Source: Rikenellaceae bacterium (GTDB taxonomy: Bacteria; Bacteroidota; Bacteroidia; Bacteroidales; Rikenellaceae). From it: a stretch of 64,000 bases of DNA. The notes under the pieces were generated by a model, which ran no database searches, had not been told where the DNA came from, and saw only the letters and a list, made by a program, of their open reading frames with translations. Each line of letters opens with the position of its first letter. The stretch's first letter is position 1. A program made the translations under genes and the position numbers. Of this stretch, positions 13,013-61,779 are shown in pieces. The DNA lies in the NCBI GenBank assembly GCA_015060075.1, contig SUZE01000008.1:17715-81714 (forward strand), read 5' to 3'.

Positions 13013-14446
13013 TTATTGGTGTTGCGGGCGGAGCAGGTCCTGCACAACCTTAACAGGCGAAAAAGTTGAGATAGGAACATCAACAAATATGGTGTTCCAC
13101 TTTGCCATAGCGCCATTCCACAAACCCGGTAACTCCTGCGCACGCAACTCGCGACCGCCACTCGACTTCGAAGAGATAAAGCCCGTCTTCGGGTCTGTGT
13201 AGCCCATCAAGTCGAACTTCGAGCCATCTGCTCGGCGCACTCCACATACCAAATCCACAGGGTTGAAGTGAGTAGCCTCCTTCATCAGTGGCATATCCTC
13301 GGCACTTATCTGACTCGATTCGGCAATTTGCAACGACTGTGTACCGTCATCATTCTTAACCCAGAATGGGCCACCGCCCGGCTCACCCTCGTTACGTACC
13401 ATACCACAAATACGGATAGGGCGGTCGAGCAATGACTCCACCAATGCAGCATCATACTTGGCAGGAAGTTTGGTGCAGAGTTTATGCTCTACAAACTCGG
13501 CAACCTCCTTTAAATCGGCAGAGCCACTACGCAACGCCTTCAAGTGGGCGAAAGTCTGTGCTTGGAGGTCGAGCAACACACCTGCTAATGCCTTCTTGTA
13601 GCGGATAGTATCGCCACGCAGGGCATCTGTTGTTACATTGTCGATATTTTTTACGAAGATTACATCTGCCTCGATATCGTTCAAGTTCGACAATAACGCT
13701 CCGTGTCCGGCAGGGCGGAACAACAACTTGCCCTCATCGGTAAGGAATGGGGTGTTGTCAGGATTTACCGCTATGGTGTCGGTTGAAGACTTTTGCTCCG
13801 AGAAAGAGATGTCGTACTTGATGCCGAATTTATCCTCATACTTGGCTACACGCTCATCAAGCAAAGCCTTGAATGCTGCCTTATGTTCCGGAGATACAGT
13901 GAAGTGGAGTCGTGATACGCCCTTTGATGCTCCATACTGCGCACCCTCCATCAAGTGCTCTTCAATCGCCTTGCGTGCGCCATCAGGATAGTTGTGGAAA
14001 GTAACTAATCCCTTTGGCTTTGCACCGTAGTTAAGACCTTCTTTGATAATTGCTGAAACAACTGCCTTGTCATCGCTGAAATCTACTCCCGTAGCCTTCA
14101 ACTCTTCGTAGAATGCAAACTTTTCGATATTTTGCAGGAGGGTGTCGATGCCCTTACCTCGCTTATCGTCATTTACAAATTCAAACAACTCCTTAAACAT
14201 TCGCGTTGCCGCACCCGATGCAGGAACAAATTTTACCACTTCGAGCTGCTCGGCTGTCGCTTCATAGTGTTTGATGGCAATATCGCAAGCCTCTTCCGTG
14301 AGTATGGTGATACCATCTTCGGGCGAAGCGGCTTTTACGACTTCGAGAGAGGGAAAACCTTGGCGGAACGCCTCAATCTGTTTTTCGACTTGCGCCACGG
14401 TAAGCCCATGTGCCTCAATTTCATGAATCTGTTTTTCGTTGAACAT
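13013..14446 (-). CDS. DUF4301-like protein
   Basis: FVPASGAATRMFKELFEF, GLVTFHNYPDGARKAIEEHL, RPAGHGALLSNLNDIEADVIFVKNIDNV; resembles the Bacteroidetes DUF4301 family. Confidence 0.8.
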   Translation of the reverse strand: MFNEKQIHEIEAHGLTVAQVEKQIEAFRQGFPSLEVVKAASPEDGITILTEEACDIAIKHYEATAEQLEVVKFVPASGAATRMFKELFEFVNDDKRGKGIDTLLQNIEKFAFYEELKATGVDFSDDKAVVSAIIKEGLNYGAKPKGLVTFHNYPDGARKAIEEHLMEGAQYGASKGVSRLHFTVSPEHKAAFKALLDERVAKYEDKFGIKYDISFSEQKSSTDTIAVNPDNTPFLTDEGKLLFRPAGHGALLSNLNDIEADVIFVKNIDNVTTDALRGDTIRYKKALAGVLLDLQAQTFAHLKALRSGSADLKEVAEFVEHKLCTKLPAKYDAALVESLLDRPIRICGMVRNEGEPGGGPFWVKNDDGTQSLQIAESSQISAEDMPLMKEATHFNPVDLVCGVRRADGSKFDLMGYTDPKTGFISSKSSGGRELRAQELPGLWNGAMAKWNTIFVDVPISTFSPVKVVQDLLRPQHQ

Positions 14447-14631: not shown

Positions 14632-14997
14632 ATGAGAAAAATTGTTATTTACTCTCGGCATGCCGAGGTTAGAGCCCTAATAAGAGGGTTGTTATCCGAT
14701 ATCGAAGCCTATTTTGTACCGGCATCCTCGCGTGAAGAGTTGTTCAAAATCTGTCAAACCACCAAATGCGATTTGGTGCTGACCGATGATGTCAGAATGT
14801 TTATGAATGGCTCCGATGCTATTTTGCAGATTCGACAAGAAGGCTATCTACCACAGATATTCGTGATGTCGTATGACCTATCGGAAGATACGATTACAGC
14901 CCTACTCGAAGAGGGTGTAAATCAGTTTATATCTCTACCTGTTGCCCCCGAACGACTTTGTCACAAGGTTGCAACGCAATATCGAGAATTGGTATGA
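14632..14997 (+). CDS. Stand-alone receiver-like protein (degenerate CheY-like domain)
   Basis: MRKIVIYSRHAEVRALIRGLL...CDLVLTDDVRMFMNGSDAI...IFVMSYDLSEDTITALLEEGVNQFISLPVAPERL; receiver-like spacing, but acidic pair and Lys absent. Confidence 0.7.
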   Translation: MRKIVIYSRHAEVRALIRGLLSDIEAYFVPASSREELFKICQTTKCDLVLTDDVRMFMNGSDAILQIRQEGYLPQIFVMSYDLSEDTITALLEEGVNQFISLPVAPERLCHKVATQYRELV

Positions 14998-15812
14998 TAG
15001 AGTTCGTTGAAGAGGTGTTGGCTATTGCACTCGCCTTACCATTGTTGGTGATGACCATACATCTGGTTTATGTTTTTCGCAGATGGCTGATATCCCATGC
15101 CACTGTCCGATGTGTGGCGCAAATTTCGGCAATGCTTGTGGCAGAAGAGGAACCGAGTGATAAGGAGATACGCTCCTTACGAATTAGATTTACGAAAGGG
15201 ATTATACACGATGCAGTAAATTTTATCTCGGAGTATATATATGGCAGGTCACTCAATCGTCTATCATTGATTGTTGAGGTGTGTGCGGTTGATTATACTC
15301 CTATATTTTATGGGCGATTCGGTGAGATTGCGACACTTATCGAGGCATATCCGGACCATGCCATACGATATATTTCTCGCCTTGACTATCCACTCTCTTG
15401 GTATGATGTTGCACTCTTGTCGCAACTCATGCGCCGAGCAGGAACACCGATAGCTTATACCCCTCTGCTGATATCGCAAAATCGCAATCTGCAACTTATA
15501 GGGCTCTATCTTTGCGAACACTTCTCGATAGTCGATGCAGAGCCACATCTGCAACGATTGGCCGGCTCGGAGGATAGCGAAATATCCTACATTGCGCTAC
15601 TATCACTCTGCTCTATTCGTGGTGACATATCGACTTCGCAGGTAGGTAGGGCGCTGGGAGGGCTTTTGCCATATCAACGAGCCGCTTTTCTTCGCCACGC
15701 TGTACATGCTTGTTATTCGTTGCGTTCGTGTGCACATCTGCTTAATAAGAGGGAGGGGCAGCTCTTCTTGCAACGCATAAACTCTTATAAATGCCGGATT
15801 GTATGCAACTAA
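14994..15812 (+). CDS. Hypothetical protein: one N-terminal TM segment plus HEAT-like alpha repeats
   Basis: ALALPLLVMTIHLVYVFRRWL TM segment; repeated helical pairs (ISQNRNLQLIGLYLCEHF, AGSEDSEISYIALLSLCSI); ATGA overlap with the previous gene. Confidence 0.6.
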   Translation: MIEFVEEVLAIALALPLLVMTIHLVYVFRRWLISHATVRCVAQISAMLVAEEEPSDKEIRSLRIRFTKGIIHDAVNFISEYIYGRSLNRLSLIVEVCAVDYTPIFYGRFGEIATLIEAYPDHAIRYISRLDYPLSWYDVALLSQLMRRAGTPIAYTPLLISQNRNLQLIGLYLCEHFSIVDAEPHLQRLAGSEDSEISYIALLSLCSIRGDISTSQVGRALGGLLPYQRAAFLRHAVHACYSLRSCAHLLNKREGQLFLQRINSYKCRIVCN

Positions 15813-16771
15813 TATCACTACTATTGTTTCTGTTTTCGGCTCTACTGTTTGTTGGAGCCATACTATTTGTTGCGATATGGCATCGGACATCTCGTAACAG
15901 TTCTGCTGTGAAGATTCTAAATGAGGGTATCGGACATATTGGGGTGTCGGCAGTTGTGGCGTATCCCAATACCCCGCAACCTCTTATCGCTCTGCTCGAA
16001 GAGGAGTATCCTCGCAGTGAGGCTGTTATCGTTACCGACCTCGAACACTTTCTCTCTCCATTCGGGGAGTTGATACAACGATTCCACCTTGTAAAGGTAA
16101 ATCATGCGCATTTGTTAGGTGTTCGTTCGCTATATCGTTCTCGCCATCGTGCATTTAGGCGTGTTGTGATGGTCGATTTGCCGATTGAATCTCGCCATCG
16201 TGCATTAGATGTCGCCAAAGAGGTTGCAACCTATGACTATATTCTGCAACTGCAAGGGGAGAGTGTAGTCGCACACGATGCACTCGCCTATTGCGCCAAT
16301 ATTATAGCCTCGCATCACGCCACCGCAAATATCTCTATGCGCAGCCTTATAGGAGCAGAGGTTCATCTCGAAAGGTGTGATGCATCTGATAAACGAGATA
16401 TTATCCATATACTTTCCGATAGAATATTGGCTTGGCATAGTGGTGGCTCATGTCTTGCTATATGTGCGATATTTATACCGGCTTTGTTTGTTCTTATGGC
16501 GCACTTGTCGAATAGTAGAGTTGTACTGCTTGTGGCAGTGACAATCTTACTATCACTTGCGTTTTGTCTGTATGTTTCGTGCCGTGTGATGACCGAAAAG
16601 AGTCTATTTAAGACACTCGGCACAATATTGTACAATTTTTATCGCTTTTTGATTGAAAGAGTTAAAAATTTTCACTATCTTTACAAGGAGAGGATAGACC
16701 GCAGTCGAATCCTGACCAAGGGCGTTGCGGTGATTAATAGAATAAGAAAAACCAACCGAGAATCACCATGA
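15803..16771 (+). CDS. Glycosyltransferase-2-like membrane protein, apparently degenerate
   Basis: N-terminal TM, GT-A-like VVAYPNTPQPLIALLEEEYPRSEAVIVTD, YDYILQLQGESVVAHDAL, C-terminal TM pair. Confidence 0.5.
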   Translation: MQLISLLLFLFSALLFVGAILFVAIWHRTSRNSSAVKILNEGIGHIGVSAVVAYPNTPQPLIALLEEEYPRSEAVIVTDLEHFLSPFGELIQRFHLVKVNHAHLLGVRSLYRSRHRAFRRVVMVDLPIESRHRALDVAKEVATYDYILQLQGESVVAHDALAYCANIIASHHATANISMRSLIGAEVHLERCDASDKRDIIHILSDRILAWHSGGSCLAICAIFIPALFVLMAHLSNSRVVLLVAVTILLSLAFCLYVSCRVMTEKSLFKTLGTILYNFYRFLIERVKNFHYLYKERIDRSRILTKGVAVINRIRKTNRESP

Positions 16772-17601
16772 TAGAGCAACAACTTAGAGAGTATCTTTTG
16801 CCATGTGCCTTCAATGCAGCAGTACGAGCCGGAGCCGAAATAATGAAGGTGTATCATAATAGCGAAAGCTATGACATAAAGGTTAAGAGCGATAATACGC
16901 CCTTGACCATTGCAGACCGTCTTGCTCATAACAAGATAAAGGAGGTGCTGGGCTCCACCCGTATTCCGATTCTCTCGGAAGAGGGGCGTGAAATGCTCTA
17001 TGATGAGCGCAAAAATTGGGATATGTTTTGGCTGATAGACCCGCTTGATGGTACCATTGAGTTTATCAAGGGCAATAACGAGTTTACGGTAAATATCGCC
17101 TTGATGTCAGAGAATGAGTGTGTTGGTGCGATTGTTTACGTTCCATACCTCGGAAAGGCATACTTTGCCGAGCAGGGTTGTGGTGCAATGTTGTTGGAGG
17201 GTGTCTATCCTGACGAAAACGCCAACTATACCAATCGTGATATTCGCTCGAAGGCGCAGATGTTGCCTCTATCCTCGGCTACGCACGATAAGTTTCGAAT
17301 CGCCGTGTCACGCTCGCATCAGACAGCCGAAACAGCTGAATATGTCGAGAAAATGCGAAAAATACACCCCGAAATTGATATCATTGAACAGGGTAGTTCC
17401 TACAAGTTTTGCCTTATGGCGGAGGGGGCGATAGATTACTATCCACGCACTACAACGACCTACGAGTGGGATACGGCTGCTGCTGAGTTGATACTTGTGG
17501 AGTCGGGCGGTTTGGTACGTTCGCTGCCGGACCATCGTCCATTGCGTTATAACAAAGAGGACTTACACAATCCTTGGTTTGAGTGCCACCGATTTATGTA
17601 G
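16768..17601 (+). CDS. cysQ: 3'(2'),5'-bisphosphate nucleotidase CysQ (inositol monophosphatase superfamily)
   Basis: DNTPLTIADRLAHNKI, PILSEEG, WLIDPLDGTIEFIKGNNEFTVNIAL, YEWDTAAAELILVESGG. Confidence 0.92.
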   Translation: MIEQQLREYLLPCAFNAAVRAGAEIMKVYHNSESYDIKVKSDNTPLTIADRLAHNKIKEVLGSTRIPILSEEGREMLYDERKNWDMFWLIDPLDGTIEFIKGNNEFTVNIALMSENECVGAIVYVPYLGKAYFAEQGCGAMLLEGVYPDENANYTNRDIRSKAQMLPLSSATHDKFRIAVSRSHQTAETAEYVEKMRKIHPEIDIIEQGSSYKFCLMAEGAIDYYPRTTTTYEWDTAAAELILVESGGLVRSLPDHRPLRYNKEDLHNPWFECHRFM

Positions 17602-46596: not shown

Positions 46597-47145
46597 ATGG
46601 ATACCGAGAAACTCTATACAGAAAGGCGTTGGTATGTTATGCGGGATTTGAAAAGAAGCAATGCTCTTATGCCCGCATATAAACAGTTGGCTGAGGCGGG
46701 GATAGAGGTCTTTACGCCAATGGTGTCTCGTTTGTTTACCAGTAATGGTTTACGCATCAAAAAAGAGGTTCCGGTGATTCAGGACTTGCTATTTGTAAAT
46801 GATTCTCGTCAAAATATAGATGCGATTGTAGCCAAAACTCCTACGCTTCAATATAGGTTCAAGAAGGGTGGTAAATTTGGAGAGGCTCTTGTCGTGCCAG
46901 ATGACGAAATGGCGAAATTTATTGATGCGACACACGCAACTAACAATCCGAAATTCTACTCTGCAGAAGAGGTTTCTACATTGATGTGTGGTCGTACAGT
47001 TCGAATGATTGGCGGAACATTGAATGGCTATGAGGGTAAACTTCAAACAGTTAGAGGTTCAAAGAAAAAACGTTTACTAATTACGCTACCATCACTAATG
47101 GCGGTAAGCCTTAGTATTAATGATGAGTATATCGAATTGCTTTAA
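46597..47145 (+). CDS. UpxY-family transcription antiterminator (NusG N-terminal domain)
   Basis: RRWYVMRDLKRSNALMPAYKQLAEAGIEVFTPMV, GGTLNGYEGKLQTVRGSKKKRLLITLPSLMAVSLSI; first gene of the polysaccharide locus. Confidence 0.92.
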   Translation: MDTEKLYTERRWYVMRDLKRSNALMPAYKQLAEAGIEVFTPMVSRLFTSNGLRIKKEVPVIQDLLFVNDSRQNIDAIVAKTPTLQYRFKKGGKFGEALVVPDDEMAKFIDATHATNNPKFYSAEEVSTLMCGRTVRMIGGTLNGYEGKLQTVRGSKKKRLLITLPSLMAVSLSINDEYIELL

Positions 47146-47347
47146 GCAATTGACGGACTTTGTGGTACAGATTATATCGCAATATATTGCAACAATCTAA
47201 CTAAGGCATAATACAAACTTGATTGAGAAGTGCAATATAACTTGATAAGACGTGCTACAGTTTTTGGAATTGGCAAGAAACAATCCAATATGGGTAAGAT
47301 AGAGTTACATAGGAGTCTTAATTGCTGATTAATTCTCATGACATCTT

Positions 47348-48871
47348 ATGTCAAATAATAAGCGCATAGCAAAAAATACGATATTTCTATACATTAGGAT
47401 GCTAGTCCTAATGTTAGTTTCTTTGTATACATCAAGAGTTGTTTTAGCTGCTCTTGGAGTTGAAGATTATGGTATTTATAATGTTGTTGGTGGAATTGTG
47501 GTATTGTTTACATTCATCAACAATGCAATGATAACATCAACGCAGCGATATCTGAATTATGAGCTTGGAAGGAACGATTTACAACAAGCAAAGAAGGTGT
47601 TTTCTGTCAGTTTGAATATTCATATTTTCATAGCACTAATTGTTTTACTCCTTGCTGAAACAGTTGGTTTATGGTTCCTAAACACGACTATCCAGTATCC
47701 TGAATCGAGAGAGTTTGCAGTACACGTCACATATCAACTATCTATTTTAACAACCTGTGTCAAGATTATAAGAGCACCTTACAACGCAGCCATCATTGCC
47801 CACGAAAAAATGTCTTTCTATGCATATTTGAGCATATTTGAAGCAATATTACAATTGGGAATCGTCTTTATGTTGATGTCTTATAGTGCAGATAGATTGA
47901 TACTATATAGCATTTTATTATGTATAGTCGCCCTTATAGTCAATTTGTGTTATTATGCTTATTGTCGAAAGAAATTTGAGATTTGTCATTATGCGTTATA
48001 TAAGGATAAATTATTGTATCGACAATTACTCAGTTTCTCGGGTTGGAGTCTTTTTGGCGGAGTGGCCAATATGGGAGCAAGTCAAGGATTAAATATGCTT
48101 CTCAATGTATTCTTTGGCGTTACCGTCAACGCAGCAATGGGTATAGCCACTCAAGTAAATACCGCCGTATCGAGTTTTGTGAGCAGTTTTCAAACTGCTT
48201 TTAATCCTCAAATTGTCAAATCGTATGCAGCAAGAGACTATGGTTATTTTATAAAACTGATATTATCAACATCTAAATACTCATATTTACTTTTATTCAT
48301 CATTGCGCTTCCTATATATATATGTTGTCCTGAAGTGTTAAACGTTTGGCTCACGGAAGTTCCTGATTATGCAGTGTCGTTTTGTAGGCTGATGTTAATA
48401 TTTGCCTTATTAGATGCTTTGCAGGGGCCATTATGGTATTCGGTGCAAGCAACAGGAAAGATAAAGACATATCAGATTCTGATGTCGTTTATGATTTTAG
48501 CCAACTTACCGATTGCGTATGTGTGTCTAAAGTTAGGATATTCGCCTAATAGTGTACTGGTGGTTAGGTGCATCATAAACCTCGCAACTTTATTTGTAAG
48601 ATTGTGGTATCTGAATAGACTATACAAATTCCCTGTAATGGAATTTGTAAATGGCGTAATCTTCCGAATAGTCCCTATAACGGTAATTGCATACCTGATT
48701 TCATATATTCCAATAGATGCAGACACATCTCTTTTGAAGATTCTTATCGTAGTCGCAATGACTCTTGTTGCCAATATGGTTCTGATACTATCTATTGGAT
48801 TAAATAAAGACGAAAGACTAGTCGTGAAGAGAAAGATTAATCGCTTGTATGAAAAATATAGGAGAGGTTAA
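47348..48871 (+). CDS. Polysaccharide flippase / oligosaccharide repeat-unit translocase (Wzx/MATE-like)
   Basis: Multi-TM; RIAKNTIFLYIRMLVLMLVSLYTSRVVLAALGVEDYGIYNVVGGIVVLFTFIN. Confidence 0.92.
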   Translation: MSNNKRIAKNTIFLYIRMLVLMLVSLYTSRVVLAALGVEDYGIYNVVGGIVVLFTFINNAMITSTQRYLNYELGRNDLQQAKKVFSVSLNIHIFIALIVLLLAETVGLWFLNTTIQYPESREFAVHVTYQLSILTTCVKIIRAPYNAAIIAHEKMSFYAYLSIFEAILQLGIVFMLMSYSADRLILYSILLCIVALIVNLCYYAYCRKKFEICHYALYKDKLLYRQLLSFSGWSLFGGVANMGASQGLNMLLNVFFGVTVNAAMGIATQVNTAVSSFVSSFQTAFNPQIVKSYAARDYGYFIKLILSTSKYSYLLLFIIALPIYICCPEVLNVWLTEVPDYAVSFCRLMLIFALLDALQGPLWYSVQATGKIKTYQILMSFMILANLPIAYVCLKLGYSPNSVLVVRCIINLATLFVRLWYLNRLYKFPVMEFVNGVIFRIVPITVIAYLISYIPIDADTSLLKILIVVAMTLVANMVLILSIGLNKDERLVVKRKINRLYEKYRRG

Positions 48872-48969
48872 AGACTGCTTTGACTGTGGAATATTTGTAC
48901 TCAAATTTGTGCAAAAAGCGCCATTCGAATATTATCAAGTTACCATAAATACATAAATGTCATACAGGA

Positions 48970-50043
48970 ATGAAATCCGTCTCTTTTATCACAATCCATT
49001 TTGGAGCGAATTTTGGCTCAGTACTTCAAACCATTGCCACATATAGGATTTTAAAAAGTTTAAATTGTAATGTAACTTGTATAAATTACATCCAAGATAG
49101 GTGGACATGGAAAGCATATTTTAATGTCAAAAAACCATTTAGATTGGCTAAACGCATTTTGTACTCTCCTATTGAGTTTGCAAATCGTTACATATATCAA
49201 TCTTTTCTAAAAAAACATGTCAAACTAACACCAGAAATATACAAAAAGGACTTTGCGAATAAATGTCCAAAATCAGATGTTTATATTACAGGCAGTGATC
49301 AAGTGTGGAATAGTAAACACAATCAAGGAGTAGACACTATATATTACTACGAGAATATTCAAGCTCCAAAGATTGCTTTTGCCTCTTCTTTCGGTCAAGA
49401 ACAATTATCTGAGAAAGAGTATACTGCTGTAAAAGAACTATTAAGTAATTACGGTCATCTTTCTGTTAGAGAAGAAAGTGGAAAAAGAATAGTGGAAAGT
49501 ATGGGATATTTTGCAGAACACCTACTTGACCCCACATTCCTGCTAAACAAAGAAGAATGGCAGAATTATATGAGCCAACGAAAAATCAAAGAGGATTATC
49601 TGCTCATATATACACCATATAACACAATAGACAAACAGGCAATATTCGATTCCGCATATTCTATTGCACAAGAGAGAAAATTAAAGATAGTTACATTTTC
49701 CTGGAACTTGCAAAAAGAAAAGATGGCTGACTATACCATAACTTTTGCTAATCCTGGGGATTTCCTCTCATTGATGCATTATGCGACATATGTTATAACC
49801 AATTCTTTCCACGGGACAGCATTCTCCATCAATCTAAATAAGCAGTTTAGTGTATTTATGCCATCAGCATTTAGCACTCGAATTAGTAGTATAATAGAAC
49901 TCTGTGGATTGCAGAGCAGAATGGTGTTGGCGCAGTTCTCCATTGAGCAATCTAAAGAAATTATTGATTACACAACAGTGAATAAAGTGTTAGATGCTGA
50001 ACGAGAAAAGAGCATAGAATTTCTTAAACAGGCTTTGTTGTAA
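48970..50043 (+). CDS. Polysaccharide pyruvyl transferase family protein
   Basis: ITIHFGANFGSVLQTIATYRIL, ITGSDQVWNSKHNQGVDTIYYYENI, SLMHYATYVITNSFHGTAFSINLNK. Confidence 0.92.
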   Translation: MKSVSFITIHFGANFGSVLQTIATYRILKSLNCNVTCINYIQDRWTWKAYFNVKKPFRLAKRILYSPIEFANRYIYQSFLKKHVKLTPEIYKKDFANKCPKSDVYITGSDQVWNSKHNQGVDTIYYYENIQAPKIAFASSFGQEQLSEKEYTAVKELLSNYGHLSVREESGKRIVESMGYFAEHLLDPTFLLNKEEWQNYMSQRKIKEDYLLIYTPYNTIDKQAIFDSAYSIAQERKLKIVTFSWNLQKEKMADYTITFANPGDFLSLMHYATYVITNSFHGTAFSINLNKQFSVFMPSAFSTRISSIIELCGLQSRMVLAQFSIEQSKEIIDYTTVNKVLDAEREKSIEFLKQALL

Positions 50044-50044
50044 T

Positions 50045-51217
50045 ATGTACTTTAAGACGTTAGAAAAACAAGATTGTAGCGGGTGTACAGCGTGTGTTAA
50101 TGCTTGCCCCAAACAATGTATTGTTATGAAGCCCGATGACGAGGGTTTCTTCTATCCAGAGATTGATAAATCGGCCTGTATAGAGTGTGGTGTTTGTGAA
50201 AAGGTGTGTCCTTTTGACAAACCCAAATATGAGAATACAGAGATTCAAGATGTATACGCTTGCTATATTAAAGAGGCTAAACAGCGTCAACGAAGTACAT
50301 CTGGCGGCTTATTCTATGCAATAGCAAAATGGGTGATTGAGCATGGCGGTATTGTTTATGGTGCTGCATTCGATGATAATTTTAAATTACGACATATTGG
50401 GGTAGACAATCTTCAAGATTTGGAGCAATTACGAGGCTCTAAATATTTACAAAGTTATTTGGGGGATTGTTACGCAGAGATAAAGGATTATCTAAAAAAC
50501 GGAAGATGGGTATATTTTGTTGGCTGTGGATGCCAGGTTGCTGGGCTCAACGCGTTTCTGCGAAAAAAGTATGATACCCTTATAACCTCTGATTTAGTAT
50601 GTCATGGGGCTCCAAGTCAGTTGATGTTTGATTGGCATTTAGACTATTTGCGTAGAAAAGAAAAAGGAGAAATAACATCTTATACTTTCAGAGACCTCGC
50701 AGGTTGGGGGGTTTGTGAGTCGTATCAATACGACTCACAAACCCGTGGCAAAGGACAAAGAAAGAATCAAACTTATTATCTCAGTCCTTATCTCTATTCC
50801 TTTATGTATGCGTTTACATACCGATATAGCTGTTATAATTGTAAGTTTGCTCAGGTTCCTCGTCAAGGAGATATTACTCTTGCAGATTATTGGGGTGTAG
50901 ATAAGTTCTTCCCAGATTTAGAACGAGCAAAAGGAGTGTCCTTGGTTATTGTAAATACTCGAAAAGGCAGAAATATTTGGGGGGGGGTAGAGCGCTCTAT
51001 TGAATACAGAAAATCTAATATTGTGGATGCTGCCAAGGAGAATGGAAATCTAATTCACAAAACGGCAATGCCTGAAATACGACCTATTTGTTACCACATT
51101 ATTCGTGAAAGAGGGTATGAGGATGTGGCAAAAAAAGAGTTCCGAATTAAGGGATATCGTTTCTATGTGATTAAATGTGTAATAAGAACTATTTTAAACT
51201 ACATTAAGAGGCATTAA
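50045..51217 (+). CDS. Coenzyme F420 hydrogenase/dehydrogenase beta-subunit family protein with 4Fe-4S domains (polysaccharide locus type)
   Basis: CSGCTACVNACPKQCI, CIECGVCEKVCPFDK, GGLFYAIAKWVIEHGGIVYGAAFD, VCHGAPSQLMFDWHL. Confidence 0.93.
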   Translation: MYFKTLEKQDCSGCTACVNACPKQCIVMKPDDEGFFYPEIDKSACIECGVCEKVCPFDKPKYENTEIQDVYACYIKEAKQRQRSTSGGLFYAIAKWVIEHGGIVYGAAFDDNFKLRHIGVDNLQDLEQLRGSKYLQSYLGDCYAEIKDYLKNGRWVYFVGCGCQVAGLNAFLRKKYDTLITSDLVCHGAPSQLMFDWHLDYLRRKEKGEITSYTFRDLAGWGVCESYQYDSQTRGKGQRKNQTYYLSPYLYSFMYAFTYRYSCYNCKFAQVPRQGDITLADYWGVDKFFPDLERAKGVSLVIVNTRKGRNIWGGVERSIEYRKSNIVDAAKENGNLIHKTAMPEIRPICYHIIRERGYEDVAKKEFRIKGYRFYVIKCVIRTILNYIKRH

Positions 51218-51218
51218 T

Positions 51219-52442
51219 ATGTTAACCTATTCTATTAATAGCAAGTGGTATGAGAAATTTGCCGCATTCTATCTTGCGTTTGCATCCATATTGCAGACTT
51301 ATGGATATGGCGGTTTCTTGAATTTTAGCCGTTTGTGTTCTTTCGTACTAATTTTTGTAGTGATATGTGTATGTATGAAAAAGGCAACATTCAGCAAAGT
51401 GCCAACCTCTTTATCAGCATATTTCTATTGGTTATTCTTGGTCTCCGTTTTGTCCTGCACTTCACTTGCCGATGCGATACCATTAGGTCAAATAGAGAAA
51501 TATCTGTTAATCGTAGCAATTTTTAGTTTTGTTAATTATAACAAGTTCTTACCAATATATAAATTTGTATCATATGTTTCTATTGCATACTTGTATATAC
51601 AGCTCATCGTATTTCATCTATCAGGCGTTCATATAACTGGTATTATTGGGTTTCTACCGTTGGATTTAGCTGATGTTATCAGCGTTGAGGATTTCTATGA
51701 CCTGCACACTCGTGAAAATGCTCGTGTTTCATCTTTTTTTTCCGAGCCTGCATTATTTGTCCAATATGTTATACCATTATTTATAATAGAATTGTTTAAT
51801 GCCTCAAAATTCAAAGATTGGATAAAGGTTATTATCGTTTTTATTTCCATTTTAGCGACAGAATCTGGTAATAGCCTCTTCCTTCTATTATTAGTAGGCG
51901 TTTCATACGTAGTATATATTCTACGATACAAAAGCGTAATTTGGCGTATTCTTCTTCCAATTGCAATTATTGGGCTCTTTATAGGCGGACAGGAATATTT
52001 GAAAACTGATTCTGCTGAAAGGTTGTTAGAAAGACAAGACGAATTATCAAATGATATCGAATATACTTCAGGGTTCTTAAGAATCTTTAGAGGTTACTAT
52101 GTCTATGAGGAGTTTACTCCAATAGAGAAAGTTATTGGAGTAAATAATTTAACGATTCTTGATGAAAGAATAAAGACTTGTAAAGCGGCTTTTACATTTA
52201 AAGAAAATGATTATTATGCCAATACATTCCAAAAATTTTTACTTAACACAGGAGCGATAGGAGTTGTTTTCTTTCTTATAATCATGTTTGGGTTAATGAG
52301 GAATAACACTCCTGCTGGAAGAACCATTGCTTTCGTATATTTTGGTTCATCTTTTATTGCAGCATCATACCTTGCACCGATAATGTTTCTATATCTATAC
52401 ATTGCCTATATGGAAAAGAAGTCACTTAATAGAATGCAATAA
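51219..52442 (+). CDS. O-antigen/capsule polymerase-like membrane protein (Wzy-like)
   Basis: About ten TM segments; position in locus; periplasmic-loop pattern FFSEPALFVQYVIPLFIIELFN. Confidence 0.7.
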   Translation: MLTYSINSKWYEKFAAFYLAFASILQTYGYGGFLNFSRLCSFVLIFVVICVCMKKATFSKVPTSLSAYFYWLFLVSVLSCTSLADAIPLGQIEKYLLIVAIFSFVNYNKFLPIYKFVSYVSIAYLYIQLIVFHLSGVHITGIIGFLPLDLADVISVEDFYDLHTRENARVSSFFSEPALFVQYVIPLFIIELFNASKFKDWIKVIIVFISILATESGNSLFLLLLVGVSYVVYILRYKSVIWRILLPIAIIGLFIGGQEYLKTDSAERLLERQDELSNDIEYTSGFLRIFRGYYVYEEFTPIEKVIGVNNLTILDERIKTCKAAFTFKENDYYANTFQKFLLNTGAIGVVFFLIIMFGLMRNNTPAGRTIAFVYFGSSFIAASYLAPIMFLYLYIAYMEKKSLNRMQ

Positions 52443-52453
52443 TATATATCACT

Positions 52454-53602
52454 ATGAAAAAAGTAATGCTCGTCTTCGGCACTCGTCCTGAAGCAATAAA
52501 GATGGCTCCGTTAGTTAAGGAGTTCCAAAAATATCCTAACGATTTCAAGACGATAGTATGTGTAACCGGTCAGCATCGCGAGATGCTTGACCAAGTATTG
52601 AGCCTGTTCGAAATTACTCCCGATTATGACCTTAATATCATGAAACAAGGTCAAGACCTGTATGATGTTACGGCTCGTGTCTTGGTGGGTATGCGTGATG
52701 TATTGAAGGAGGCGCAACCTGATGTGGTTTTGGTTCACGGTGATACTACAACTTCGACTGCTGCTGCGCTGGCTGCCTTCTATCAGCAGATTCCGGTAGG
52801 ACATGTTGAGGCGGGATTGCGCACTCACAACATTTATAGCCCATGGCCTGAGGAGATGAATCGTCTGATTACCGGCCGTATTGCAACATATCATTTTTCG
52901 CCTACGCCACTTAGTAAAGAGAATCTGTTGAAGGAGAGTGTTGCTGAAAGTGCGATTACGGTTACGGGTAATACCGTTATTGATGCACTCTATATGGTTG
53001 TTGATAAAATCAAAAAGGACTCTGCGCTATCAGACGAGTTGGCAACCTTGTTAAAGAATGCAGGATATGACACCGCACGTTTGGCTAATGGTAAGAAGTT
53101 GGTGTTAATTACGGGTCATCGCCGAGAGAATTTCGGAGATGGTTTTATCAATATGTGTACAGCTATTAAAGACTTGACACAGAAGTATCCGGATGTTGAT
53201 TTTGTCTATCCAATGCACCTCAATCCTAATGTACGCAAGCCTATTCATGAGGTGTTTGGAGAGGATTTGACAAATTTGGGTAATATGTTTTTCATTGAGC
53301 CATTAGAGTATCTGAGTTTCGTCTATCTGATGGAAAAATCGACCATTGTTCTGACCGATAGTGGTGGTATTCAAGAGGAGGCTCCTGGTCTTGGCAAGCC
53401 TGTGTTGGTTATGCGTGATACAACCGAACGCCCTGAGGCTTTGGCGGCTGGTACTGTAAAATTAGTGGGTACAAGTTACGATAAGATTGTGACAGAGGTC
53501 TCTTGCTTGCTTGATGATTCTGCATATTATGATACAATGAGTAAGGCCGTAAACCCTTATGGTGACGGTTTGGCATGTGGTAGAATAGTAGAAATACTCT
53601 AA
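52454..53602 (+). CDS. wecB: UDP-N-acetylglucosamine 2-epimerase (non-hydrolyzing)
   Basis: LVFGTRPEAIKMAPLVKEFQ, VHGDTTTSTAAALAAFYQQIPVGHVEAGLRTHN, TDSGGIQEEAPGLGKPVLVMRDTTERPEA. Confidence 0.96.
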   Translation: MKKVMLVFGTRPEAIKMAPLVKEFQKYPNDFKTIVCVTGQHREMLDQVLSLFEITPDYDLNIMKQGQDLYDVTARVLVGMRDVLKEAQPDVVLVHGDTTTSTAAALAAFYQQIPVGHVEAGLRTHNIYSPWPEEMNRLITGRIATYHFSPTPLSKENLLKESVAESAITVTGNTVIDALYMVVDKIKKDSALSDELATLLKNAGYDTARLANGKKLVLITGHRRENFGDGFINMCTAIKDLTQKYPDVDFVYPMHLNPNVRKPIHEVFGEDLTNLGNMFFIEPLEYLSFVYLMEKSTIVLTDSGGIQEEAPGLGKPVLVMRDTTERPEALAAGTVKLVGTSYDKIVTEVSCLLDDSAYYDTMSKAVNPYGDGLACGRIVEIL

Positions 53603-53612
53603 TAATTATCTG

Positions 53613-54614
53613 ATGAAAAAAGCATATTTGTATTGCGACAAGCGCTCGTTAAATGATGCAACAATCTTCTATGTAGATTTAGTAAATGATTGTTTGCGCG
53701 TTAAGGGATATGATGTTTTCACTGTACATCAGTTAAACGAAATTAAAAAACCAAATCTAATCTTTACTATCACAAATTACTACTTTGTAAAAGCAAAGGT
53801 AAGATTCCCATTTACAAAGACTATAAATTGGTCACAGGGAGTAGAATTTGAGGAAGTAAAGATGACTCGAGCATATTGGAAAAGATTTCCTTTCTGGCTA
53901 TTTGAGCAACTCACAATATGGTTATCCGACATGCATCTTTTTGTATCTGATAAGATGTGCGAGTACTATCGTAACCATTTTTCATATAGAGGCAATGAAC
54001 ATGTTATTATGCCTTGTTATAATCTTCCCTTGGGAGAATTTTTGTCAGTAGAACGCTACGCTTCGCCATCGTTTGTTTATGCCGGTGGTGTAAGTAAATG
54101 GCAAGGAATAGATACTATTCTTGACACATATGCCAATATTGAGGCGCAGATTCCAACATCCTCCTTAACAATGTATTGCAAAGAAGAGGATTACATTTAC
54201 AGTGAGGCACGGAAACGCAATATTAACAATATTAAAGTTAAATATGTTCCATTGGATGAGCTGCAAAGTGAACTATGTCAATACAAGTATGGTTTTATTC
54301 TAAGAGAGAAGAATTGGGTCAATTATGTTGCAACACCCACTAAAATGAATTCTTACCTAGCAGCATATCTAATACCAATTTTTAGTGATGGTGTTGATGA
54401 TTTCTCTTTGAATATAAGTCTTGGTGATTTTACAATTATGGCCAAGACGCCGTTGAATCCTAACACTATAGCTGAACAAATAGTATCATTCGAGAAAGGG
54501 AAACATTGTTATGAAGATTATAAAGGCATAGTTGAGCGTGTTTTCAGTCATCACTATAATGATGAACATTATAAGTGTCAAATATTGAAAAAATTATCAG
54601 AGTTAAATATGTGA
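53613..54614 (+). CDS. Glycosyltransferase-like protein
   Basis: FVYAGGVSKWQGIDTILDTYANIEAQIP...YVPLDELQSELCQYKYGFILREKNWVNYVATPTKMNSYLAA. Confidence 0.75.
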   Translation: MKKAYLYCDKRSLNDATIFYVDLVNDCLRVKGYDVFTVHQLNEIKKPNLIFTITNYYFVKAKVRFPFTKTINWSQGVEFEEVKMTRAYWKRFPFWLFEQLTIWLSDMHLFVSDKMCEYYRNHFSYRGNEHVIMPCYNLPLGEFLSVERYASPSFVYAGGVSKWQGIDTILDTYANIEAQIPTSSLTMYCKEEDYIYSEARKRNINNIKVKYVPLDELQSELCQYKYGFILREKNWVNYVATPTKMNSYLAAYLIPIFSDGVDDFSLNISLGDFTIMAKTPLNPNTIAEQIVSFEKGKHCYEDYKGIVERVFSHHYNDEHYKCQILKKLSELNM

Positions 54615-54666
54615 TTTCCTGTCTATTCTAATTTATTGGAATAGTACGGATTGTGTAGAAACAAGT

Positions 54667-56100
54667 TTGAATGAGATGACTTTTCAATCTATCGAATACC
54701 TAATATTCTTTCCTATAGTATTCTTACTATATTGGATTGTCGGCAATAAAAACAAGATGATACAAAATAGCATTCTTGTTATTGCAAGTTTAATCTTTTA
54801 TGGTTGGTGGGATTGGCGTTTCTTGAGTTTGCTGCTATTCACTGCGTTTTCCACTTTTGTCGCAGGATTGTTGATGGGAAATAAATCGCTATCAAACAAT
54901 AAACGCAGACTAATATCAGTAATATCGATTCTCTTAAACCTTGGCATTCTATTCATATATAAATACTTTAATTTTTTCATTGAGTCATTTGTAGATTTGT
55001 CAGCGGTATTTGGGATAACAATTACCGCTTCTACTCTAAAAATTATCTTGCCGGTCGGTATAAGTTTTTATACTTTCTCGGCATTAAGTTATAGTATTGA
55101 TGTATATCAGAGAAAAATATATCCGACCAAGGATATAATAGCCTACCTGGCATATGTCACATTTTTCCCAAGTATATTAAGTGGTCCAATCAATAGAGCC
55201 GACAAGTAGTTGCCACAATACTTCGAGTCACGCAGTTTTAACTATAATGTGGCTATAATGGGCTGTGTATCAATTTTGTGGGGCGGGCTAATGAAATTGT
55301 GTTTGGCAGATAGATTGGGCATCTATGTAGATGCTGTATATGCCAACATTGCACAACATAATGGAACGACATTGTTATTTGCCTCTATTCTATATACAAT
55401 TCAAATATATGCAGATTTTGCGGGATATTCTTTAATGGCCATTGGTTGTGGCAAACTATTAGGCATTCACTTACAAACAAACTTTATACGCCCATACTTT
55501 GCTACAACAGTCACTGAATTTTGGAGAAGATGGCATATATCACTGACAACTTGGTTCCGAGATTATATATACTTCCCATTGGGAGGAAATAGATGCAGTA
55601 AACCTCGCTGGATATTAAACACATTAATTGTATTTACGGTATCGGGATTATGGCATGGAGCTGCGTATGCTTTTTTGCTTTGGGGTGTGCTCCATGGTCT
55701 TGGGATGATTGCCGAAAGGCTATTGTACGGTAATAGGTTGAAACAACTATCAAATAAATTCTCCCTTTCAAGCATTATTCGATGGGGTGTAACATTTATG
55801 TTCGTTAACATTGCTTGGATACCATTTAGGGTTAATGATTTAAATGATGTTAAGGTTATTATTGGCAAAATATTTACAGACCCTGGCTCGATATTCATAG
55901 ATGCCAATACCCTTTTAATGGGAATGATAGCTTTTGTAATAGTTTTCATACATGACTTCATTGAGGAAAAAAGAGACAAAGACCCTCTTTTACTCTCCAA
56001 GTATAGGGTTGTCAGATATGCATCTGCTGTACTGATTGTATGCTATATTCTTGCATTTGGAGTGCTTAATGGTGGCTCATTCATCTATTTTCAATTCTAA
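54667..56100 (+). pseudogene. MBOAT-family O-acyltransferase (AlgI-like), split by an in-frame TAG at 55207-55209
   Basis: ORFs 54667-55209 and 55210-56100 are in the same frame; GPINRADK*LPQYFESRSFNYN... WRRWHISLTTWFRDYIYFPLGGNR. Confidence 0.88.
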
Positions 56101-56105
56101 TAATC

Positions 56106-57023
56106 ATGCACAAGGGTATTCTAAAATTTTGCCGTTCTGTATTAATAGTTGTTGCATTAGTTACAATAGTAGATGTCGCAGTTGGGTATCTAATGGATTG
56201 GATGATGCCTCGAACAGGAAATAAGGGTGATTTATGTTTAACGAATTTAGGTGTAAATGTTATAGAAACTCCAATTGTTATTGTTGGAAGTTCCAGAGCG
56301 TCTCATCACTATGACCCTAGAATTTTTGCGGATAGTCTTGGCAAGGCCACATATAATGTTGGAACTGATGGTTGTTTCTTTACTCACAATTGTTGTGTTA
56401 TAAATTCCATTTTAGAAAGGTATTCTCCAGAACTTATAATATGGGAGTTTGAGCCATCATACCTGTTAGAGCATAGTGCAGATGATATCACTTCGATGTA
56501 TCTATATTACAACAAAAGAGATTATATCACCAAAACCCTCAATGACGTATTGCCTAGAAGTGAAGTTATAAAATTAAACAGCAATATATATCGCTATAAT
56601 TCAAAATTCATTCGAGTTCTTACTAGATATTTACAAAATAATGATACTCCAGATGAACACAGCGGATATGAACCATCAGCCCCCAAAAGTCTTAAAGAGC
56701 CGTTAAGTCTTGTCGAGGAGAAGTTGAGTTCTACATCAGTTATTGATAGTAGTAAATTGTATCGTTTCAAGGAGACTATTGAAAATGCGAAAACCAAAGG
56801 GTGCAAAATAGTATTAGTTAACTCGCCGAAATACGCTATTGACACTAATGTGTATATGACAGATACGGTTACAAATCTTTGCCAAGAGCAAGGAGTCTCA
56901 TTTATGGACTGCTCGCAATTGTATATAAATCACCCTGAATATTTTAACGATCCCTCCCATTTGAATGCCATTGGAGCGGATATATATACAAAACATATAG
57001 CATCAATACTCCAAAGTAATTAA
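56106..57023 (+). CDS. SGNH/DltD-like hypothetical protein, probable partner of the MBOAT
   Basis: N-terminal TM; PIVIVGSSRASHHYDPRIF (GSSR Ser motif); terminal DPSHLNAIGADIYTKHI (DxxH-like). Confidence 0.7.
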   Translation: MHKGILKFCRSVLIVVALVTIVDVAVGYLMDWMMPRTGNKGDLCLTNLGVNVIETPIVIVGSSRASHHYDPRIFADSLGKATYNVGTDGCFFTHNCCVINSILERYSPELIIWEFEPSYLLEHSADDITSMYLYYNKRDYITKTLNDVLPRSEVIKLNSNIYRYNSKFIRVLTRYLQNNDTPDEHSGYEPSAPKSLKEPLSLVEEKLSSTSVIDSSKLYRFKETIENAKTKGCKIVLVNSPKYAIDTNVYMTDTVTNLCQEQGVSFMDCSQLYINHPEYFNDPSHLNAIGADIYTKHIASILQSN

Positions 57024-57095
57024 TAATGCCATTGATTTCCCCAATAATAGTTACATGTTTGAATATTTTGTTGATACATCTATTTTATAGCGGTT

Positions 57096-58187
57096 ATGAA
57101 GATATTGCATATTATAAATAGTTTGGGCTGTGGTGGTGCAGAGAGCCTATTGTCTGATTTATGTTACATTCAGAAAGAACAAGGATTTGACATAAGTATC
57201 GCCACATTAAAGGATGAAAATTCGATTTTTAAAGAAAAAGTCAAACAATTAGGTGTTGAGTATATTAGTTTGTCGAGTAGGTTAAGCATCTATAATCCCA
57301 TATTTATATTCAAGATATCTAAGTTGATAAAGCAATACGACCTAATACATGTCCACTTGTTTCCTGCTCAATATTGGGTCGCAATTGCTAAGTTTATTAC
57401 CCGTACAAAAACTCCAATAATAACAACAGAACACTCTACCAGTAATAGGAGAAGAGAACTCAAAATTTTCAAGTATATTGATAAATCTGTGTACGGATTG
57501 TACAATAAAATTATTTGTTGTTCAGATAAAGCATATGAAACATTCCGACTTCATTTCCCCTCTATAAAAAGTGCAATTTCAATTCCGAATGGAATTAATC
57601 TAAAACGTTTCAAAAATGCGAATACACAAGACAAACAAAAACTCTTTAATCTGCCCAATACATCATGTGTAATAACAATGGTTGCACGATTTCAATCCCC
57701 TAAACGACAAGATACCCTCATCGAGTCTCTAAAATATCTCCCAGAAAACTATTGTGTAGTGTTTGCTGGTAATAAACTAGATGACCCCAATGTTGTAACG
57801 ATAACAGGTTTAATCAAGGAGTTAAATTTAAATCACCGAGTTCGTTTATTGGGTGTTAGAAATGACATTCCGGACATATTAAAGACATCTGATATTATTG
57901 TCTTAGCATCAGATTATGAAGGCTTGTCGCTATCATCCATTGAGGGTATGTCCATAGGTAAACCTTTTATTGCAACTGATGTAAATGGTCTCCACGAAGT
58001 AGTATCAGGGGCAGGTATTCTTTATGAAAAAGATAACACTTCCCAGCTAGCTGCGAATATTCTTAAATTAATGCACGATACGACATACTACAAAAAGATT
58101 TCAGAACAATGTGCTATTCGTGCCTCTCAGTATGATATTCACAACATGGCGAATGCATATTTAAGTGTATATAAAGAGTTTTTATAA
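57096..58187 (+). CDS. Family 4 glycosyltransferase
   Basis: ILHIINSLGCGGAESLLSDLC, VARFQSPKRQDTLIES, SDIIVLASDYEGLSLSSIEGMSIGKPFIATDVNGLHE. Confidence 0.94.
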   Translation: MKILHIINSLGCGGAESLLSDLCYIQKEQGFDISIATLKDENSIFKEKVKQLGVEYISLSSRLSIYNPIFIFKISKLIKQYDLIHVHLFPAQYWVAIAKFITRTKTPIITTEHSTSNRRRELKIFKYIDKSVYGLYNKIICCSDKAYETFRLHFPSIKSAISIPNGINLKRFKNANTQDKQKLFNLPNTSCVITMVARFQSPKRQDTLIESLKYLPENYCVVFAGNKLDDPNVVTITGLIKELNLNHRVRLLGVRNDIPDILKTSDIIVLASDYEGLSLSSIEGMSIGKPFIATDVNGLHEVVSGAGILYEKDNTSQLAANILKLMHDTTYYKKISEQCAIRASQYDIHNMANAYLSVYKEFL

Positions 58188-58189
58188 TT

Positions 58190-59230
58190 ATGAAAATTCT
58201 TCAGGTTATTACCCAATCTGAATTGGGTGGTGCACAAACGGTTGTTGTGCAATTGGCAAACAATCTCAGCAAGGAATATGAAGTGGTTTTGGCTGCTGGA
58301 CAAGGCGATGGAAAGATGTGGAATATGGTCAGTAATCAAGTAATCAAGGAAGATTGCCCCCATTTGCAACGCTCAGTATCGTTGAAGAACGATTTGTTGG
58401 CCGCTATTGAGTTGAGAAGGCTCTATAAAAAATATAAGCCAGATGTGATTCATCTGCATTCATCCAAAGCTGGCACACTCGGTCGCATTGTTTTCCCATC
58501 AAAGAAGACGGTATATACTGTCCACGGATTTGATTCGGTAAGATTGGCATTTAGAAAATTCTTGCCTATCGAGAGATTTTTACAACATTTCTGCAAAGCC
58601 GTAGTAGGTGTTAGTAAATACGATGAGAAGAATCTCTTGGCCGAAGGAATAAAGAATAATGTGTCTACTGTTTACAATGGAATATCCATTCCTGATTGTT
58701 CGCAAATTAGCGATATTGATGTATTTAACCAAGATAAGAAAGTTGTTTTGACAATAGCTCGAGTTTCCCCTCCCAAAAAAACAGACCTATTTGTAGAGGT
58801 TGCACGATTGCTTCCAAAGTATAATTTTGTGTGGATTGGCAACCAATGCGAGGTGTCGGAGTTTGGAGAACTACCCAGCAACTGTCACTTCTTGGGTAAT
58901 GTACCAAATGCAGGAGCCTTTTGTTCAAAAGCAGATTTGCTGATGTTGCCATCGAATTACGAGGGATTACCAATGGTTATTTTGGAGGCAATGAGTTTTG
59001 GTAAACCCGTGGTTGCTTCGGATGTTGGAGGTATTAGCGAGATTGTTAGAAATGAGGTAAATGGTTACACATTGGCGAACGATGCTCGACTGTTTGCCGA
59101 AAAGATACAAAACATATTTGAAGACACGACTTTATATTCCAAATTCTGCCAAAACTCACTTGACATATTCCAAAGGGAATTAACCGTTGAGAAAATGGTG
59201 CAGGGGTATTTAGATATTTACAGAAGATAG
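58190..59230 (+). CDS. Family 4 glycosyltransferase
   Basis: ILQVITQSELGGAQTVVVQLANNL, IARVSPPKKTDLFVEVARLL, ADLLMLPSNYEGLPMVILEAMSFGKPVVASDVGGISEIV. Confidence 0.95.
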   Translation: MKILQVITQSELGGAQTVVVQLANNLSKEYEVVLAAGQGDGKMWNMVSNQVIKEDCPHLQRSVSLKNDLLAAIELRRLYKKYKPDVIHLHSSKAGTLGRIVFPSKKTVYTVHGFDSVRLAFRKFLPIERFLQHFCKAVVGVSKYDEKNLLAEGIKNNVSTVYNGISIPDCSQISDIDVFNQDKKVVLTIARVSPPKKTDLFVEVARLLPKYNFVWIGNQCEVSEFGELPSNCHFLGNVPNAGAFCSKADLLMLPSNYEGLPMVILEAMSFGKPVVASDVGGISEIVRNEVNGYTLANDARLFAEKIQNIFEDTTLYSKFCQNSLDIFQRELTVEKMVQGYLDIYRR

Positions 59231-59241
59231 TGTTTTACAGA

Positions 59242-60324
59242 ATGGACTTAAATAACGATACTCACCTTCTACTCTATCTTACGGGATGTGGATTAAGATT
59301 TAGGGAAATTGATCCCGACTTAATCGCAGATATCCCACTAACTCGTTGGAAGCACATATACAACCTTGCGCAAGAGCAGGGTGTTCTTGCTATTGTCTTT
59401 GATGCAATAGAGAAGTTGCCTGCATCAGTGAATATATCCAAACCATTAAAGCTTCAATGGATTGCGGCAGTTCATACAAGAGAATATAACTACAAGAAGC
59501 AGTACAATATAGCGGTGGAACTCGCCACTGCCTTCAAAAAGGAAGGTATCAAAACTGCGGTGCTGAAAGGTCTTTCTATATCAACATATTACCCTAAACC
59601 AGCATACAGAGAATTCGGCGACTTTGATTGTTTTTTAGGTGATAATTACGAGGTTGGAAACTGTATTGCTGAAAAGTTAGGGGCGAAAGTAGAGCGAAAT
59701 TACTACCGGCACTCTCACATTTTCTACAAAAATCAAATGGCCGAAAACCATCAATTCTGTGTTGGAATTCGTGGTAGCAGGAAAATGAAAGAGTTTGAAA
59801 AACATCTTTATCATATAATGTACAATGAGACGGAGTTCATAGATGAGAATAATGTTCTTATCAGACCTTCGTGCGATTTTAATGCTTTGTTCTTGACATC
59901 GCATGCAATGACTCATTTTCTTGTTGAAGGGATTAAGTTAAGACATATTTGCGATTGGGCAGTTCTGTTGTATCACGAACAGCGAAATATCGACTGGCAT
60001 AATTTCTATCAATGGACTGATAAACTACACTACACTCGATTTGCCAACATTATTACCAGTATAGCAAATGCATATCTCGGTCTGGAGATTGAAAATGAAT
60101 TAATTAAACATGAAGAGATATATATAGATTTGGTTTTGGACGATATTTTCCATTCCAATTCCTTATTCAATAAAGGATATGGCGTCTGGCGAAGCAGATT
60201 CACAAGTATAAAGAATAAGTTTATGTCTTTGTGGAAATTCCATAGAATATACCAACAATCTGCGATAAAAACAATAATGGTTCAAGTTCTTGGTTTCTTA
60301 TTTGACCGCAATCCTAAACTATAA
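59242..60324 (+). CDS. Nucleotidyltransferase family protein (Nucleotidyltransf_5-like)
   Basis: AVLKGLSISTYYPKPAYREFGDFDCFL (KG..Y..P..R..GD.D pattern); the ORF track starts at GTG 59230, ATG at 59242 preferred. Confidence 0.8.
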   Translation: MDLNNDTHLLLYLTGCGLRFREIDPDLIADIPLTRWKHIYNLAQEQGVLAIVFDAIEKLPASVNISKPLKLQWIAAVHTREYNYKKQYNIAVELATAFKKEGIKTAVLKGLSISTYYPKPAYREFGDFDCFLGDNYEVGNCIAEKLGAKVERNYYRHSHIFYKNQMAENHQFCVGIRGSRKMKEFEKHLYHIMYNETEFIDENNVLIRPSCDFNALFLTSHAMTHFLVEGIKLRHICDWAVLLYHEQRNIDWHNFYQWTDKLHYTRFANIITSIANAYLGLEIENELIKHEEIYIDLVLDDIFHSNSLFNKGYGVWRSRFTSIKNKFMSLWKFHRIYQQSAIKTIMVQVLGFLFDRNPKL

Positions 60325-60330
60325 CAAGCT

Positions 60331-61209
60331 ATGAAAGGAATTGTATTGGCTGGCGGGAGCGGGACGAGGCTCTATCCAATTACGAAGGGGGTGAGCAAGC
60401 AGTTGTTGCCTGTTTACGACAAGCCGATGATATATTACCCCATTTCGGTATTGATGTTGGCGGGAATCAGGGAGATTCTCATCATCTCTACGCCCTACGA
60501 TATGCCTGCTTTTCAGCGGCTTCTGGGCAACGGCAGTGACTATGGTGTGAAGTTTTACTATGCCCCCCAGCCACAGCCTAATGGTCTTGCTGAGGCGTTT
60601 ATTATCGGCAAGGAGTTTATCAAGAACGATAATGTATGCCTTGTTTTGGGCGACAATATCTTCTATGGTCAGGGTTTTACGGGTATGTTGGAGTCAGCGG
60701 TAAGGCGTGCCGAGGAACAGCATTTGGCAACCATTTTCGGCTATTCGGTGCCCAACCCCGAGAGGTTCGGTGTGGCGGAGGTCGATGCCGAGGGAAGAGT
60801 GACATCAATAGAGGAAAAACCATCCGAGCCCAAGAGTAATGTGGCGATTACGGGACTATATTTCTATACTAATGAGGTGGTTGCGATTGCTGAGAGCTTG
60901 CAACCTTCGGCTCGTGGCGAGTTGGAGATTACCGATGTGAACAAGGCTTTTTTGGCGCAAAATAGACTCTTTATGCAATCTCTTGGCAGGGGCTTTGCTT
61001 GGCTCGATACGGGCACCCACGAGAGCCTCTTCGATGCTGCGAGGTTTGTGGAGGTTGTTGAGTCGCGCCAAGGTGTGCAGATTGCCTGCTTGGAGGAGAT
61101 TGCTTGGCGCAAAGGATGGATTACGAGCGCTCGCCTTGCCGAACTCGCCGAAACTATGCTTTCCAGCGAATATGGAAGGTATATGCTCAAATTATCCAAT
61201 CAGCGATGA
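60331..61209 (+). CDS. rfbA: Glucose-1-phosphate thymidylyltransferase
   Basis: [55 protein letters not shown]. Confidence 0.98.
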
Positions 61210-61751: not shown

Positions 61752-61779
61752 AATATAGCGTTATAAACTATTTTGCTAT

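Follow-up and report, generated by a model that had tools for sequence, protein, structure and literature searches.

A pseudo-receiver, HEAT-like and pseudo-glycosyltransferase gene trio of Rikenellaceae and its origin from a receiver-YaiO-HEAT-GT2 cassette

Four open reading frames (ORFs) encoding a receiver-like protein (RR), a HEAT-like membrane protein, a degenerate glycosyltransferase (GT) and a CysQ-type nucleotidase follow one another in a 64,000-nucleotide stretch of Rikenellaceae DNA (the whole of which we call the window). This arrangement raises the question of whether the four genes form one system and what the first three, none of which has an obvious standard function, are kept for. 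A preliminary description had placed four overlapping ORFs here, and this is borne out (Table 1), with ATGA overlaps present at 14994 and 16768. The HEAT and GT frames overlap by 22 nt when the GT is started at 15791 and by 10 nt when it is started at 15803; of the two, the 22-nt form is the one present in L144 and L146, the nearest relatives. The unit is bordered on its 5' side by a divergent gene (13013-14446, minus strand) and on its 3' side by a convergent ApbE-like gene that ends at 17607. Positions 46597-63775 of the window hold what appears by eye to be a surface polysaccharide cluster, with a NusG-like gene, a flippase, glycosyltransferases and nucleotide-sugar enzymes, these contents also being judged by eye.

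Table 1. Features of the four-gene unit in the window.
Feature	Position	Strand	Description
RR	14632..14997	+	121 aa, single-domain pseudo-receiver
HEAT-like	14994..15812	+	272 aa, alpha-repeat protein, one N-terminal membrane helix
GT-like	15791..16771	+	pseudo-glycosyltransferase, 326 aa (322 aa from start 15803)
Pseudo-GT best-kept stretch	16118..16180	+	GVRSLYRSRHRAFRRVVMVDL, 21 residues, hairpin insertion and next strand
CysQ	16768..17601	+	277 aa, CysQ-type 3'(2'),5'-bisphosphate nucleotidase

To see how far this coupling is kept we counted the overlaps among related loci, with some genomes entered twice. RR and HEAT overlap at 53 of 68 loci and HEAT and GT at 53 of 65, whereas GT and CysQ overlap at only 8 of 67. 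Because the last overlap is rare and the other two are usual, the coupling belongs to the trio and not to CysQ. The proposal that all four genes are co-translated thus stands for RR-HEAT-GT, within which the overlaps are kept, but not for CysQ.

Relationship of the trio to a receiver-YaiO-HEAT-GT2 cassette

The first protein matches the receiver family PF00072 with an E value of 4e-11 (43.5 bits against a cut-off of 30.2). Its active site is altered in that the DD pair is replaced by S and R and the K by L, with the D and an S being kept. The same losses are seen throughout the 23 receivers compared, since the first DD position is non-acidic and the active-site Lys is absent in all of them; the phospho-accepting Asp persists in three, and the window's clade is among those that keep it. 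A pseudo-receiver has been defined as a receiver in which any of DD, D, T or K is missing (PMC12632262). Lacking both DD and K, the window protein is therefore a pseudo-receiver under this definition, as the preliminary description had it.

Taken singly, neither the HEAT-like protein nor the GT of the window has a significant match in Pfam or NCBIfam; the GT sequence also has none in the PDB, and relatives of both were reached by profiles only. The HEAT-like protein is modeled with pLDDT 91 as an alpha solenoid attached to a single membrane helix; its structural matches are weak and mostly to alpha-repeat and HEAT-type folds, and it is internally about 40 aa shorter than most of its relatives. 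Profile homology, the model and these matches together make its original designation as a HEAT-like membrane protein the right one. The GT is predicted to have an N-terminal membrane helix, a truncated GT-A domain and C-terminal membrane helices. Its AlphaFold2 (AF2) model shows a GT-A-like core with pLDDT above 90 and membrane helices at both ends, and each of the 50 PDB matches that Foldseek returned at E<=0.001 is a glycosyltransferase or a polysaccharide synthase.

Outside Rikenellaceae the first match to a more complete set was in genome G043 (L046, 4962-9223). The set there begins with a receiver that scores 97 bits against PF00072 and continues with an outer-membrane barrel protein (TPR-YaiO), a HEAT protein and a GT2 of 473 aa. 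About 20 further genomes from many Bacteroidales families carry a receiver-YaiO-HEAT-GT2 set, rearranged in some, and YaiO is present in most of the parent cassettes examined. Profile comparison with hhalign links the Rikenellaceae GT to the active GT with a probability of 99.6 (E 4.7e-25) and the Rikenellaceae HEAT protein to the parent HEAT protein with a probability of 99.2 (E 2e-19). The best NCBIfam match of the parent GT2 is PgaC/IcaA (TIGR03937) at 132 bits, which is far under the equivalog cut-off of 422 and so makes the enzyme PgaC-like but not PgaC; the window GT itself reaches only E 0.017 against this model, and no PgaA/B/D-like partners were seen. From these relationships the parent cassette would be a candidate system for exopolysaccharide synthesis and export, built around a PgaC/IcaA-like enzyme. 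Some parent cassettes additionally encode a membrane protein of the sulfatase superfamily (PF00884) as well as a family-less membrane protein of roughly 390 aa (noted at L135 7189-9222, minus strand, and L133 9024-10196, minus strand).

Catalytic residues separate the two forms sharply. The Lys of GGK, the Glu of GED and the Gln and Trp of QxxRW occur in none of the 36 pseudo-GTs, and the two Asp of DxD occur in five and two of them at positions that vary freely, whereas the residues of all four motifs are kept in each of the nine active GTs aligned. The first nucleotide-binding Asp (the VTD position) is D in 28 pseudo-GTs and N in the remaining eight. In the window GT, QGE stands at DxD, and alignment gaps fall at the GED/TED base and QxxRW sites. 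With the motifs lost, the hhalign probability of 99.6, the GT-A model and the PDB folds, the earlier label of a degenerate GT2-like membrane protein is correct. Pseudo-GTs also evolve fast, sharing 20-30% identity within one genus, while active GTs change slowly and differ little from one another (mean column identity of 65% and invariant catalytic motifs in 19 genomes). In a maximum-likelihood tree all 36 pseudo-GTs lie on one side of a branch with support 100/100. This topology is consistent with a single event of catalytic loss, although it has to be read with caution because branches are long and composition is skewed.

What the pseudo-GTs have kept lies elsewhere. Two non-catalytic residues, E91 and S135 as numbered in L046, do not vary among the 45 aligned GTs, dead and active. 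Conservation in the pseudo-GT peaks over the 21 residues GVRSLYRSRHRAFRRVVMVDL (106-126 when numbered from the start at 15803), which fall not in the catalytic center but in a beta-hairpin insertion of 25-30 residues that is specific to this GT subfamily and in the strand that follows it. Between the same flanking motifs this region spans about 30-40 residues in the active profile as opposed to ~3-12 in solved GTs.

No YaiO-like ORF lies between RR and CysQ in the window, where there is no space for one. Collectively, these sequence comparisons show the trio to be a reduced descendant of the receiver-YaiO-HEAT-GT2 cassette that is conserved in Rikenellaceae, and they show that YaiO, the catalytic residues of the synthase and the phosphorylation pocket of the receiver were lost in this family. 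The locus had been put forward as an undescribed system outside any known pathway. We likewise found no description of the parent cassette, of YaiO in Bacteroidetes or of the trio in the literature searched, with most subscription papers outside its scope, but the set is a derived variant whose origin lies in the parent cassette. The components of the trio are of known kinds; it is the dead and parent cassettes that are without description in the literature searched.

An intact GT of the parent type is present in 8 of 150 Rikenellaceae genomes, three of them Alistipes, and most genomes with the pseudo-cassette have none; active and dead forms occur together in three searched Alistipes genomes. 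Modulation of an active paralog by the dead GT in the same cell was consequently dropped as a general explanation. In these eight genomes (L241-L248, e.g. L241 5383-11131, plus strand) the active-type set is HEAT-GT2-YaiO without a receiver, and its YaiO-containing protein is about 770-1010 aa long. The active-type GT of G189 (L246 8485-9963, minus strand) is broken by an in-frame stop.

Conservation of the trio and its linkage to CysQ

The preliminary description had let its case depend on conservation of the neighborhood beyond close strains, and the trio extends far beyond them. Used as a query, the window GT finds matches in 26 of 60 relatives, and the HEAT profile finds matches in 75 of 150 Rikenellaceae genomes from 10 of 19 genera. 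RR, HEAT and GT occurred together and in the same order at all 25 Alistipes loci first examined. We then considered 61 CysQ-anchored loci from named Alistipes genomes, each with >2.5 kb of upstream sequence. The complete trio lies directly upstream of CysQ at 44 of these, the receiver alone at six, and no recognizable part of the cassette at 11; HEAT without GT, or GT without HEAT, was found at none. An order maintained in 25 of 25 and 44 of 61 loci indicates that the arrangement is not due to chance. At several of the 11 cassette-less loci the divergent neighbor of CysQ is rplU-rpmA, which marks an empty site. The receiver-alone loci are remnants of the cassette in which the pseudo-receiver is the sole part kept. 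At L160, L179, L192, L206, L211 and L214 (about 5.3-5.9 kb) the lone receiver lies 39-76 bp before CysQ, and at L160 and L192 at least, rplU/rpmA is divergent upstream.

Flanking sequences are less constant. Downstream flanks of the cassette differ widely among loci. Neither flank is constant in the clade to which the window belongs, yet relatives L142-L147 have kept the four genes together; in G005 (L027) CysQ is absent. The other Rikenellaceae genera g25, g34, g36, g37, g39 and g40 have a dead GT of greater length, about 340-435 aa, with CysQ downstream, and the shortest form is that of Alistipes. In g25, g34, g36 and g40 these two genes are separated by one for a secreted GH31-like protein. 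Secreted proteins of ~500 aa with partial GH31 domains lie in this position at L105 (1861-3432), L118 (2066-3577) and L119 (2158-3648), all on the minus strand, and at L106 (7495-9069, plus strand). Two long ORFs, in G007 (620 aa) and G010 (607 aa), that resembled HEAT+GT fusions are not fusions, because in this GC-rich DNA the open frame of the GT continues 5' through the HEAT gene in a different reading frame. Among L142-L221, contigs of metagenome-assembled genomes end <600 bp upstream of CysQ in 13 of 80 cases as compared with 6 of 80 downstream, an excess that perhaps reflects variation of the cassette between strains.

The ORFs for RR, HEAT and GT are open in dozens of species over dS values from 0.4 to saturation. 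In close pairs, down to about 60% GT identity, dN/dS for the three is mostly 0.06-0.37, with CysQ at 0.02-0.13 in the same pairs; more distant pairs give 0.5-0.8, where dS is near saturation. These codon-level ratios show purifying selection still acting on all three ORFs of the trio. In the pair L033/L034 the cassette has a dS of 0.03-0.08 against 0.42 for the adjacent CysQ, and this much lower divergence of the cassette suggests that it recombined between species.

CysQ itself scores 227.9 bits against TIGR01331 over nearly its full length, at an equivalog cut-off of 228.8, and this match is far above those to other members of the superfamily. No second member of the Inositol_P family was found in the assembly. 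The genome also encodes ACP synthase, a general source of pAp, while for APS-kinase there is a marginal match only. A PAPS/sulfation pathway as the reason for CysQ accordingly found no support. Given that its overlap is unconserved, that loci without the cassette still carry it and that no other gene of its family was found in the assembly, CysQ is probably a linked housekeeping pAp phosphatase, as judged from sequence, and not a functional partner of the trio. Its inclusion in one system with the other three thus keeps the linkage (44 of 61 Alistipes loci) and loses the partnership, which is improbable. CysQ shares the neighborhood of the trio and, in some species, probably its transcript.

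Possible roles of the trio

Because the trio is dead in catalytic terms yet kept intact, what survives is probably a membrane complex without catalysis and not a polymer maker. The explanation we find best, and to which we give a reasonable though far from compelling likelihood, is that a dead synthase was turned into a membrane scaffold or regulator that makes no polymer. A fuller version, in which a signaling or scaffold complex built entirely of dead parts has a single origin in an exopolysaccharide synthase operon, is under selection throughout Rikenellaceae and uses the hairpin as its working surface in place of an active site, we hold at about even chances. HEAT and the pseudo-GT would be obligate partners in a complex at the cytoplasmic side of the inner membrane, a pairing suggested by their never being found apart in CysQ-anchored loci, whereas the receiver is alone in six. 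Contact between them might run through surfaces inherited from the synthase, the hairpin among them, and the pseudo-receiver, unphosphorylated, could dock on this complex or on a different client. The module may then scaffold or regulate another process; one of the envelope or of polysaccharide is the most plausible on account of ancestry, which is a guess.

Against this explanation stand the 20-30% GT identity within a genus and the absence of the cassette from many species, both of which fit a slowly vanishing relic as well, together with the further 40 aa missing from the window HEAT protein and the dN/dS of 0.5-0.8 in distant pairs. Such a relic would have lost its job along with YaiO and catalysis and be eroding, kept by chance and by the need of CysQ expression for a promoter or transcript. 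Fast divergence, patchy presence, receiver-alone remnants and empty sites with rplU/rpmA beside CysQ all agree with it. A relic is nevertheless unlikely in our estimate, as three ORFs remain open in dozens of species with low close-pair dN/dS, the RR>HEAT and HEAT>GT overlaps are retained, non-catalytic residues are invariant and the hairpin conserved, and the trio has been kept in 10 genera after what the tree presents as one catalytic loss.

Two other explanations keep some enzymology at the locus. The GT could still be an enzyme of unusual catalysis, for instance one using the first Asp and a partner subunit to make a short glycan or glycolipid; retention of D at the VTD position in 28 of 36 sequences (N in eight) and the GH31-like secreted protein adjoining the GT in several other genera would suit this. 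It is very improbable given that none of the 36 retains the Lys of GGK, the Glu of the general base or QxxRW and that the DxD positions are free to vary. We give as little credence to a four-gene system with CysQ as an active partner, e.g. one clearing pAp from an envelope-linked sulfation step. Within Rikenellaceae, several genera besides Alistipes do have CysQ adjoining the cassette, as do most Alistipes loci, and it is beside CysQ that the receiver alone remains in six loci. However, GT and CysQ seldom overlap, CysQ is also present where the cassette is missing and was not seen adjoining active cassettes of other families among the loci listed, and the APS-kinase match is marginal while ACP synthase provides a general pAp source.

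Comparison with known systems

Single pseudoenzymes are familiar; what is unusual here is an operon in which the switch and the enzyme are both dead and which a common family of gut bacteria has kept. As active and dead cassettes coexist in the order Bacteroidales, non-catalytic roles can be tested by direct comparison, and the parent cassette, apparently undescribed in the literature searched, is itself a candidate Bacteroidales exopolysaccharide system.

The closest known likeness of the enzyme is the poly-N-acetylglucosamine synthase PgaC/IcaA, which has the GT-A fold and membrane helices and of which the parent GT is a distant relative; the window protein differs in lacking the catalytic motifs. 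Ordinary GT2 structures are without the hairpin insertion of the window's GT subfamily. The receiver resembles the pseudo-receivers and atypical response regulators (PMC12632262) in being a single domain with the receiver fold but without conserved active-site residues. It is unlike the kinds described there in that it is tied by its operon to a HEAT protein and a pseudo-GT and not to a DNA-binding or kinase domain. With the parent cassette the window set shares the order of RR, HEAT and GT, proteins homologous by profile comparison and the GT hairpin insertion. It differs, as far as sequence comparison tells, in having no YaiO and a GT that is ~150 residues shorter and apparently catalytically dead, and also in having a receiver without normal phosphorylation chemistry and CysQ downstream.
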